Shown here: one piece after another, positions 412 to 63,497 of the stretch
Layout: each line of letters opens with the position of its first letter
Position numbering within the stretch: the stretch's first letter is position 1
The notes under the pieces: model-generated
Told to the model about the DNA's origin: nothing
The model's input: only the letters and a program-made list of their open reading frames with translations
Databases searched by the model: none
DNA from: Microglena sp. YARC
Lineage: Eukaryota > Chlorophyta > Chlorophyceae > Chlamydomonadales > Chlamydomonadaceae
DNA length: 64,000 bases
Direction: 5' to 3'
Assembly: GCA_022414725.1 (NCBI GenBank)
Contig: CM039464.1
Span: forward strand, 12,760,968 to 12,824,967
Position numbers and translations under genes: made by a program

Positions 412-632
412 CTGTGAAGTCTAATTGGGTGGCAGAGTCCAGGGCACCCAGGCCAAAGAGCTGCTTGCCCATTGCAGCAATTATTGGCATGAACCCCGTG
501 CTCGAGATGGATGCTGTTAGGCCATAGGACAGGGAAGCAATGCCATAGCCTGGTGCTCCGAAAGATGCAGCTGTTGGGCACCGTCTGTTTTCATGGTCCA
601 CATATTGTTTCACGGCGTTTGGGTGTATGTGT
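412..632 (-). CDS. Partial exon, second copy of a ~90-residue repeated domain
   Basis: Minus-strand exon-like segment reading AVKQYVDHENRRC, then AASFGAPGYGIASLSYG, then GFMPIIAAMGKQLFGLG, ending ATQLDFT plus one base before a GTAACG donor. The stretch GYGIASLSYG...F.P...G...FGL.ALDSATQ aligns by eye with GYGLATFAYT...FLP..VG....GVFGLTSAMQ in the exon at 7939-8208, so the protein appears to carry at least two diverged copies of one domain. Small residues and Gly/Ser/Thr dominate. No known family was recognised. The upstream border is unclear, because a one-base frame break separates it from the DLYTYT-encoding sequence near 640. It belongs to the minus-strand gene that leaves the window on the left. 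Confidence 0.45.
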
Positions 633-639
633 AGAGGTC

Positions 640-62400: not shown

Positions 62401-63497
62401 TTGTAGGCGTCCTCCAGGGACAGCGTATTCATAGCTTTGTATAGCTTTTAAGGGCCATTAAGGGCCAAAACGTTTTTGTATAGCGGCAATTTGGGCCAAA
62501 ACGGGGTCAAAAGAAGCGATCGCTGTATATGGCGGAAACAAAATCCCTGGTTCCTCCTCTCAGCCCATCTCACCAGCCCCGCCCCGGCCGTCACAACTAA
62601 TAATCATTAATTCACAAATCACGAAATGGTCTGATTCCCAGAAGCCAGCAATGACATGGGCACACCCTCCCCACACCCACACCCACGTGGAATGACGATT
62701 TAATTACAATTGTAGAATAAAATAATCACTGAAGCACAAAACTCATGGCCCCCTTCGTAAAGTGATTGTTTGGGGTTCAGTTCATAAATGCTTTTTCTTT
62801 GAAGCCCTTCCTGTCACGGTTGGGCAAGTCCCCTTAAGCCTATTTGGCCTACCCCTGACTGTAAGATACATACATACATACATCTACATATATGTATGTA
62901 GACTTACATACATACATACATACATACATACATAACATACATACATACATACATACATAAATTCAGTAACAGGATTGCGCTACCTCTCTTCTCTCTTCTT
63001 CCCAGGTAAAGAGCTAGGGTTCAAGCGTAAGAGTTTGGGTTGTTAGGTGTGGCATGTGGCTTCTCATCCCCAACACTCACACATACCACACCACATCTCA
63101 CCATCACCCCACCTCACATCCAGGTGACAGAAGCTAGGTTCAAGTCTAGGAGTTTGGTTTTTACGTGTGGCATGTGGCAACCTCATCCCAACACTACACT
63201 CACCCACCACCTCCAGCACAGCCACTCCCACACCTCACTCACCACCTTCACCATACCTCACCACATCCCGGCACCAACATCCACATCCCACCACCCCAGC
63301 CTCCCACCATCACCCCACCTCACATCCCAGGTGAAGAGCTAGGTTCAAATCTAGAGTTTGGGTACGACAACACCAACGAGACTTCCGCCCTGTGTCCGGG
63401 CACAGTAAAGGAGAAGAAAGGAGGAGCGTACGGCCCATGTGCCACCACCAACCCCTGCGTATCTGCAACGTGTACCTTCAGACGAGGATTAGGGTGA
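53461..63497 (+). CDS. Proline-rich secreted-type protein with degenerate M23-like domain
   Basis: Five exons with standard borders and matching phases: 53461-53567, 55247-55420, 58529-59280, 61400-61704 and 63331-63497 (stop). The 5' end is missing (the first visible exon starts in phase 1). Segments in order: FGFSTGIVGWTGNSMYYN; SLTFNCTLVNADNDTAEAIE with N-glycosylation-type sites; SNCITTGNSTICHNQYDE; a Pro/Ser-rich, hydroxyproline-glycoprotein-like linker with repeated SYNYPPYYYEDYPPDAV units; CAPCQMPLES; then a domain with APAGSPVYAPQEGTI, LVVAGSVIQKGHLLGYL and SNLEFGYDN, and a Cys-rich tail. The last domain fits the M23/LytM fold, but the usual ligand positions (H-x-H near the end, D upstream) hold other residues, so it is probably non-catalytic. 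Linker and Cys pattern suggest an extracellular or wall protein. Introns are filled with repeats copied from exon borders. Confidence 0.75.
53660..53755 (+). pseudogene. Decayed copy of exon 53461-53567
   Basis: Repeats 'attgtcggttggactggaa' as 'attatcgcctggactggaa', then 'actccatgtact' and 'ggactttggaacg'. Small deletions break the frame, and GTGAGT has become GCGAGT at the donor. Confidence 0.7.
54210..54340. mobile_element. Short hAT-like element, decayed
   Basis: Starts CAGGGACAGCGTTTTTCTAG, contains GCGGCAATTTGGGCTCAAAC and ends near AAATCCTTGG. A better-preserved copy lies at 62415-62549. The flanks (AAAAGTGGTTTTTTTCTAGC) are also shared, so the insertion sits in a larger duplicated block. 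Confidence 0.5.
54440..54895. repeat. C-rich polypyrimidine intron tract
   Basis: CCCCTCC/CACACA repeats with poly-C runs of up to 34 (e.g. about 54613-54646 and 54681-54703), with 'ccacctactcacctatccc' recurring about every 90-110 bp. Confidence 0.8.
54902..55020 (+). pseudogene. Decayed copy of exon 55247-55420
   Basis: Begins with the same acceptor CCCTCCAG and reads LTKTIGFDANQGSP before a stop. In a shifted frame it continues IGFNCTLVNAENSKPAAI. The first 75 nt are close to the intact exon, and the rest is lost. It lies ~345 bp upstream of the intact copy. Confidence 0.75.
55395..57620 (+). repeat. 65-bp minisatellite carrying an exon end and donor, ~33 copies
   Basis: Starting at the 3' border of the 55247-55420 exon, about 33 units of 65 bp each contain the last 27 nt of that exon (ATGGCGGAGTACTTACAAAC then TACACG) and its GTGCGT donor, followed by 'tgttgcgtggtggttgggtg'. 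Three units (near 55350, 55640, 57680) also carry upstream exon sequence ('cgcctcttctcccttcccct'). Most units keep an intact donor. Confidence 0.9.
57621..58528. repeat. Derived minisatellites before exon 58529
   Basis: 57640-57900 holds larger variants of the 65-bp unit with 'ggcagggtgtgtagaggc'. 57900-58215 repeats 'ttttgtgtgataatgggtag' and 'tggttgggtggcagggtgtg' (about 60 bp). 58225-58510 repeats 'accactctctccctatcacc' and 'acaaccaccaaaaccactga' (about 43 bp), ending at the acceptor ATCACGCAG. Confidence 0.8.
59281..60090 (+). repeat. ~28-bp minisatellite started from a donor site
   Basis: The exon end and donor (ACATGTAAGTGGTGTTGTTT) is immediately repeated at about 59298, then mutates into ~14 units of 'tttacgtgtatggtggggtt' up to 59670, and later into irregular 'tgtatgtttgtatgttgggg' sequence to 60080. 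Confidence 0.75.
60091..61399. repeat. C-rich polypyrimidine intron
   Basis: Repeats of 'ctccctatccctctccaccc' and 'ctcccctcactccccctccc' with very long poly-C runs (about 60396-60490, and about 61249-61270). It ends at the acceptor TGACCCCAG; the phrase 'tgctgaccccc' that contains this acceptor recurs upstream (e.g. 60657, 60771). Confidence 0.8.
61705..62414. repeat. Intron with 22-bp repeat and interspersed element
   Basis: 61730-61830 repeats 'ttaaacttattactg'. 61830-62060 holds about nine units of 'gaagcactacagtgtggggc'. 62170-62350 is the inverted copy of the element at 6488-6745. Confidence 0.75.
62415..62549. mobile_element. Short hAT-like MITE
   Basis: Starts CAGGGACAGCG and ends CAAAATCCCTG. 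It shares GCGGCAATTTGGGCCAAAAC with the MITE at 14061-14283. The flanking GCGTCCTC and GGTTCCTC agree at only six of eight positions. A relative is at 54210-54340. Confidence 0.5.
62755..62960. repeat. SINE-like dispersed element with CATA tail
   Basis: Contains 'cctgtcacggttgggcaagt' and 'cctatttggcctacccctga', followed by a CATA tetranucleotide tract (62870-62960). In reverse it matches 31700-31840, which also has 'atgtatgtatg' at the same place, and the shorter copies near 35275 and 35370. Confidence 0.55.
62995..63330 (+). repeat. Two decayed copies of the last exon's acceptor
   Basis: Blocks at 62998 and 63115 repeat the acceptor and first ~35 nt of the exon at 63331 (CAG then 'gtgaagagctaggttcaa' or variants), followed by 'tgtggcatgtggc' and CACC-rich filler. 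The intact exon is the third copy. Confidence 0.75.

Follow-up and report, generated by a model that had tools for sequence, protein, structure and literature searches.

The stretch of DNA analysed here (the window) comprises 64,000 nucleotides of the 568-Mb assembly of the green alga Microglena sp. YARC, with a G+C content of 50.9%. It holds two long multi-exon genes with highly repetitive introns, which we call P and M, and a two-exon opine dehydrogenase-like gene (Table 1). The subject of this report is the copying of exon ends of P and M, together with their splice sites, into the adjacent introns, a pattern that is widespread in the genome and no local oddity of the window, and that probably reflects frequent local tandem duplication, purged in exons and tolerated in introns and across exon–intron borders.

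Exons were placed in the window by combining open frames, GT/AG dinucleotides and matching phases, and EukProt proteins support many exon-proximal junctions. Three of these proteins, P0001 (gene17605), P0121 (gene17607) and P0122 (gene17603), are apparently from the window's own species. The product of gene P carries a signal peptide, is proline-rich and has a weakly M23-like C-terminal part (Pfam M23 score below the cut-off). P0121 agrees with the gene P model at the first four junctions, save for 3 residues fewer at the start of exon 3; it lacks a stretch within exon 4, and the two sequences diverge after exon 5. Gene M is gametolysin-like (Peptidase_M11, Pfam PF05548, 4.1e-16), and its model is backed by P0122 and by P0123 (gene23456), which looks like the product of a paralogue. 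Both proteins place borders 17877 and 15237 differently, with a donor near 17905 instead and with the short exon 3 in a different form. Exon 3447-3262 has an intact frame and is present in P0123 and absent from P0122. The frame of exon 707-412 is disrupted in the window sequence relative to the EukProt proteins of gene M, through either a sequencing error or a damaged allele. Gene M extends beyond the window, with further exons at 9709-7302 (minus strand) of the stretch L010, where a partial exon-end copy at 8572-8492 is probably another copied donor.

A border was scored as copied when the best match of its terminal 20 exon bases in the adjacent intron had at most 3 edits. On this basis, 14 of the 23 borders of P and M are copied, and 16 of the 23 at up to 4 edits; an alternative gene M model, which concerns two uncertain borders, gives identical copy counts. 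By contrast, random points within the same exons yielded a mean of 3.62 copied, and none of 20,000 draws reached 14. When the border 20-mers of the 21-border model were compared with dinucleotide-shuffled introns, none of 420 comparisons gave a match at up to 3 edits and two gave one at 4, chance matches mostly having 5-8 edits. The copies are also almost confined to the intron that the border flanks: before exon 3447-3262 was added to the model, the own intron held copies at up to 3 edits for 13 of 21 borders, and the other P and M introns (ten) for 1 of 21.

The copied unit has both an exon side and an intron side. A 40-base probe spanning the junction, with up to 12 edits allowed, detected 119 copies at 16 of the 23 borders, 112 of which retain the GT or AG dinucleotide (Table 1). 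The P and M introns are mostly tandem repeat (0.60-0.64 according to Tandem Repeats Finder, TRF). In the largest array, that of donor 55420, the two copies that differ most from the border lie at the far end. Of the two copies of the 3' end of the opine dehydrogenase-like gene, one was located at 33139-33092 by tblastn and the other by reading the sequence.

Table 1. Genes of the window and copies of their exon ends (window coordinates; edits are given per length of probe).
Feature	Coordinates	Strand	Description	Basis
Gene P	exons 51041-51128, 53440-53567, 55247-55420, 58529-59280, 61400-61704, 63331-63497	+	six exons	frame open, phases match
Gene M	exons 20981-20694, 18199-17877, 15237-15074, 11572-11349, 8208-7939, 3447-3262, 707-412	-	runs past window end	
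Opine dehydrogenase-like gene	33322-35589 (exons 35589-35464, 34437-33322)	-	two exons	PF02317, 5.3e-32; P0001, 100% identity over exon 2 query
3' end of opine dehydrogenase-like gene	33095-33320	-	two downstream copies of last codons and flank, 2 edits/20	TRF, period 118 over 33095-33379
Donor 51128	51189-51632	+	5 copies (exon end and GT)	40-base junction probe
Acceptor 53440	52952-53440	+	2 junction copies, 10 edits/40	
Donor 53567	53660-53865	+	2 partial exon copies, both weak (12 edits/40), one with GC for GT	
Exon 55247 with acceptor	54886-54990	+	1 partial copy	
Donor 55420	55461-57900	+	34 copies, period 65, GT in all, 32 at 0-2 edits/40	TRF and junction probe
Array beginning at donor 59280	59281-59677	+	about 4 exon bases shared	sequence reading
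Acceptor 63331	62991-63150	+	2 copies	
Donor 20694	20000-20560	-	3 copies, copied exon part up to 164 bases	
Acceptor 18199	18370-19275	-	14 copies, spacing mostly 53-60 bases	
Donor 15074	12444-14964	-	20 copies with part or all of the short exon	
Donor 11349	11199-11238	-	1 junction copy; second partial copy near 11020-11040	second copy by eye
Acceptor 8208	8287-10564	-	22 copies	
Donor 7939	5863-7762	-	2 copies	
Acceptor 3447	3560-5713	-	5 copies among interspersed GGGAT arrays	
Donor 3262	2356-2962	-	3 copies	
Acceptor 707	769-1024	-	2 copies	
Donor 412	81-345	-	1 junction copy (11 edits/40), partial exon copies	

Not every border behaves in this way. Nine of the 23 P and M borders have no copy at up to 3 edits and seven (58529, 59280, 61400, 61704, 17877, 15237 and 11572) none at up to 4. 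Neither of the two splice borders of the opine dehydrogenase-like gene is copied, nor is any of the five borders of a tentative gene lying in an element at 22-31 kb. The original prediction, made from the sequence of the window, had listed twelve places where repeats grow out of exon borders or a gene end. Eleven of them hold, including the 3' end of the opine dehydrogenase-like gene at 33.1-33.3 kb, which is indeed copied downstream; at the twelfth, donor 59280, the best match to the terminal 20 exon bases has 9 edits. Conversely, several borders absent from that list are copied, namely donor 51128, acceptor 53440, both borders of exon 3447-3262, acceptor 707 and donor 412. The further proposal that the repeats decay with distance from the border describes one family: among the six with more than three copies, divergence grows with distance at acceptor 8208 (rho 0.61), the other five ranging from -0.32 to 0.12.

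We then turned to the introns of chaperonin (PF00118) and kinesin (PF00225) genes as a sample of the rest of the genome, with borders set from the position in the profile, the phase and the score of the splice site. For the chaperonins, 11 gene clusters were prepared from 64 matches and 25 introns were accepted from 9 clusters (3 pairs were dropped and L027 was left out). For the kinesins, 19 loci with adjacent exons and a short span were hand-picked, after partial exon matches had been noticed there, and 26 introns were accepted (4 pairs were dropped). In both families, pairs whose matches lay more than 14 profile positions apart were left out; three accepted introns differ by 3-4 codons from the expected length. 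The match lists are lower bounds. Among the kinesin matches, three partial overlapping matches of one exon part lie side by side at G000:C1:145291615-145292182 and at G000:C2:15919754-15920484, a layout that intronic copies of exon ends would be expected to produce.

Border copying recurred in both families. It was found at 18 of 50 chaperonin borders (mean for random exon points, 4.6) and at 31 of 52 kinesin borders (mean, 9.6), with none of 20,000 draws as high in either case. Copying thus affects 49 of the 102 borders sampled elsewhere in the genome and, when those of the window are added, 63 of 125, which bears out the prediction that introns contain copies of the adjoining exon ends on both strands and in unrelated genes. 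The junction probe detected 172 copies at 54 of the 102 borders, of which 23 are donors and 31 are acceptors. The copies are spaced at a median of 138.5 bases (quartiles 96-172), and 144 of the 172 keep GT or AG. Local copies also abound in randomly chosen DNA: in 12 random 3-kb stretches, 2051 of 4764 20-mers (0.43) recur within 1.2 kb to one side, as do 1074 of 3067 complex 20-mers (0.35; range 0.06 to 1.0). Two of these stretches, L051 (G000:C3:40000000-40002999) and L055 (C3:55000000-55002999), consist wholly of local repeats of low GC (0.41 and 0.24, respectively) and are perhaps satellites.

It had been suggested that the duplication process is focused on the borders themselves. We therefore determined the share of 20-mers that have another copy in the intron and followed it across the border into the exon. 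In the window, this share is 0.65 at the border and mostly 0.60-0.75 within the intron; the corresponding values are 0.36 and about 0.37 for the chaperonins, and 0.62 and about 0.53 for the kinesins. All three profiles run approximately level from the intron to the border, with no clear border peak, and fall to zero for 20-mers centred 110-140 bases into the exon, so that only exon interiors stand out, by their depletion. The original prediction had named as its own refutation that borders be copied no more often than random intragenic points. Against intronic points this is the outcome in the window, where the copied fraction of borders (14/23, 0.61) is not above that of such points (3913/5894, 0.66); chaperonin borders, at 0.36, are close to the mean intron value of 0.38. 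A process focused on the borders is not supported by these comparisons. Repeat density within introns is not significantly U-shaped either (0.73 at the ends and 0.53 in the centre, p = 0.21).

We consider it probable that these arrays are mirage-type minisatellites (a term used for similar arrays of amphioxus, see below) arising from a general process. Segments of roughly 50-300 bases would be tandemly duplicated very often in this genome, possibly by slippage, unequal exchange or duplicative break repair. Duplications within an exon would break the protein and be lost, whereas those in an intron, or across a border with the exon-proximal copy intact, would leave the mRNA unchanged, provided that the spliceosome keeps using the exon-proximal site, and would be retained as presumably neutral changes. 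Repeated rounds would generate arrays, and an intron would lengthen as its two ends, each with a short piece of exon, are copied again and again, the tolerated border zone being about one unit wide. The repeats would then seem to spring from the exon edges. The 3' end of the opine dehydrogenase-like gene is copied as well, in the absence of a splice site. Targeting to splice borders is not needed to explain the pattern.

The introns also display a compositional asymmetry. In 59 of 62 introns, the initial 200 bases have a stronger bias of G over C than the final 200 (10/11 in the window, 24/25 in the chaperonins and 25/26 in the kinesins), and in gene P the sense strand switches abruptly from G-rich to C-rich in mid-intron, at 54398, 58227 and 60078. 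Such a skew would follow if the arrays had been seeded by G/T-rich donors and by C-rich tracts at the acceptors.

Several observations weigh against general duplication as a full account. In the kinesins, alone among the three data sets, borders are copied somewhat more often than introns (0.60 versus 0.52). Once low-complexity 20-mers are removed, 0.48-0.51 of the border-straddling 20-mers are copied, compared to 0.32-0.41 in the first 300 intron bases (62 introns); deeper in these introns the value for complex 20-mers is 0.48, level with that of the border-straddling ones. This modest excess may be explained by a slower change of the exon copy, in which case targeting is not required. The intergenic DNA at 35.6-51.0 kb is poor in local copies (0.066; TRF 0.035-0.10) relative to the P and M introns, and the rate of duplication hence varies. 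A crude neutral coverage model, in which unit length equals copy spacing, has the right shape but overpredicts copying beyond about 20 exon bases (0.25 predicted at 100 exon bases, 0.09 observed). Neither P nor the opine dehydrogenase-like gene has its start copied, and the end of P is not copied either. Finally, general duplication alone does not account for the near-universal G-richness of the donor end relative to the acceptor end.

Duplication targeted to exon–intron borders, with the borders as the origin of the arrays, would accommodate part of these observations: it could result, for instance, from breaks linked to transcription or splicing, through R-loops in the G-rich half at the donor end, and it would fit the kinesin values, the excess of complex 20-mers over the first 300 intron bases, the G-richer donor ends and the contrast in tandem repeat between the P and M introns and the intergenic DNA of the window. 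We nevertheless regard it as unlikely, because the unfiltered profiles have no clear border peak, the deep intron equals the border, the U-shape is not significant, random stretches too contain many local copies, and a gene end devoid of splice sites is likewise copied. We are equally doubtful of an extended version in which the borders are true hot spots and the arrays functional, duplication linked to transcription or splicing copying the splice sites outward, so that almost every intron has a G-rich half derived from the donor and a C-rich half derived from the acceptor, with many decoys that join in splice-site choice.

If used, 35 of the 112 decoys with an intact dinucleotide in the window would give a length divisible by three, and only 3 of these would also be stop-free. 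Decoys would thus nearly always break the frame, and the protein depends on the exon-proximal site, which we infer to be the one that the cell uses. The splice dinucleotides are retained above random columns (311/20,000 in the window with one probe and 91 to 1011 with others; 248/20,000 in the genome, or 1361/20,000 with one copy per border), and in the pooled data they are kept in 225 of 259 copies, whereas the same dinucleotide at other probe positions is kept in 316 of 421 cases. When this comparison is made border by border, the excess is not significant (0.853 versus 0.818, p = 0.27, 55 borders), and we do not claim that selection retains decoy splice sites.

The idea that the arrays were selected because repeated splice sites and G-rich and C-rich halves aid splicing, as reserve sites, enhancers or through fold-back, could draw on the retention of the dinucleotides, above random columns and in the pooled data, and on the skew of 59 of 62 introns, but it seems to us rather improbable. 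Besides the non-significant border-by-border excess and the frame-breaking nature of almost all decoys, pairing between the donor and acceptor halves of the same intron is no stronger than between halves of different introns (-155.9 kcal/mol for own pairs and -157.7 kcal/mol for swapped ones, 12153 of 20,000 permutations being as good), and fold-back of an intron's own halves was accordingly rejected.

Some copies resemble exons. The copy of donor 20694 at 20181-20005 is an exon in P0122 by direct match (98%), and comparison of the P0122 sequence with the window translation places exon-like copies near 8897-8823 and 864-769. P0122 therefore appears to take three gene M copies as coding exons, which may represent either a route from copy to exon or a source of misannotation. 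That exon copies could turn into exons or introns is also what may be said for intron birth, whether by duplication of exonic AGGT segments (the Rogers model) or through Introner-type mobile introns. Both are very improbable. In the 11 window introns, the donor and acceptor junctions differ by 21-26 edits in 40, unrelated pairs having a mean of 23.0; the two junctions of one intron thus resemble each other no more than junctions taken from different introns do, and the Rogers model was rejected. Introners, for their part, are disfavoured by the near-confinement of border copies to their own intron among the window introns. Lastly, chance, low-complexity matching or an assembly artefact can hardly be at work: simple repeats are abundant and one gene M exon is frame-disrupted relative to the EukProt proteins, but the shuffled introns gave no match at up to 3 edits, copies in most arrays diverge from the border, the pattern survives restriction to complex 20-mers, and it was replicated in the chaperonin and kinesin families.

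The original prediction knew of no description of the phenomenon at this density. Its kind is in fact known. The 'mirage' minisatellites of amphioxus (BflGb6, BflGb9 and Adh3) are tandem units of 10-160 bases that span the exon–intron border; they occur at the 5' as well as the 3' border, many copies carry GT/AG, and their authors suggest that regular splicing is undisturbed (PMC3087553). The arrays of the alga likewise have units with exon and intron sides (at 16 of 23 window borders and 54 of 102 others), involve donors and acceptors and keep GT/AG in most copies. Unlike the amphioxus mirages, which are reported at a few gene loci, they affect 63 of 125 borders in several unrelated gene families of a green alga, with up to 34 copies per border.

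Border-crossing duplication is known in two further settings. In human segmental duplications, internal tandem repeats across exon–intron boundaries alter and lengthen introns, with 27 modifications in recent paralogues and variable repeats averaging 4 copies of 30-base units (PMC2812944). The boundary-crossing expansion is common to both systems, but that of the alga is much denser and is not tied to gene duplicates. In the potato RdRp gene, one tandem duplication over an intron–exon boundary gave rise to a new intron (PMC4974935). The alga shares the border-crossing duplication; however, it enlarges existing introns, and its donor and acceptor junctions are not copies of one another. Finally, in Chlamydomonas and Volvox, tandem repeats are reported to reach their highest density in introns and to be more numerous close to intron–exon junctions, with GT/AC motifs (PMC3887541). 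That survey counts repeats and, in its available part, does not report the copying of exon sequence or splice sites observed here. In literature searches limited to open-licence papers, we found no report of border copying at such density, or in algae. What is new is therefore the density and the green-alga lineage, mirages being commonplace in this genome and not an exception.

With about half of the sampled exon edges copied, this genome constitutes a natural experiment on intron lengthening, on splice-site choice among near-identical decoys and on exon birth. It also calls for caution in annotation, since intronic exon copies appear to have been absorbed as exons in existing protein models and family searches return partial overlapping matches.

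The window contains other elements. An Rfam search of the window gave nothing at gathering scores. The segment 22082-31286 is bounded by nested inverted repeats (22082-22247/31121-31286, 96%; 22592-22797/30353-30558, 90%; 22415-22568/30586-30739, 82%) and is likely a mobile element; a long open frame within it (29942-31006, minus strand) has no Pfam match. Inside the same element, about 12.5 copies of a 165-base unit lie at 26002-28069. In the middle of the window (36-47 kb), inverted repeats of 71-118 bases with 78-96% complementarity are found at 36163-36912, 36608-40625, 41044-42848 and 44006-46652, and these are perhaps small mobile elements.

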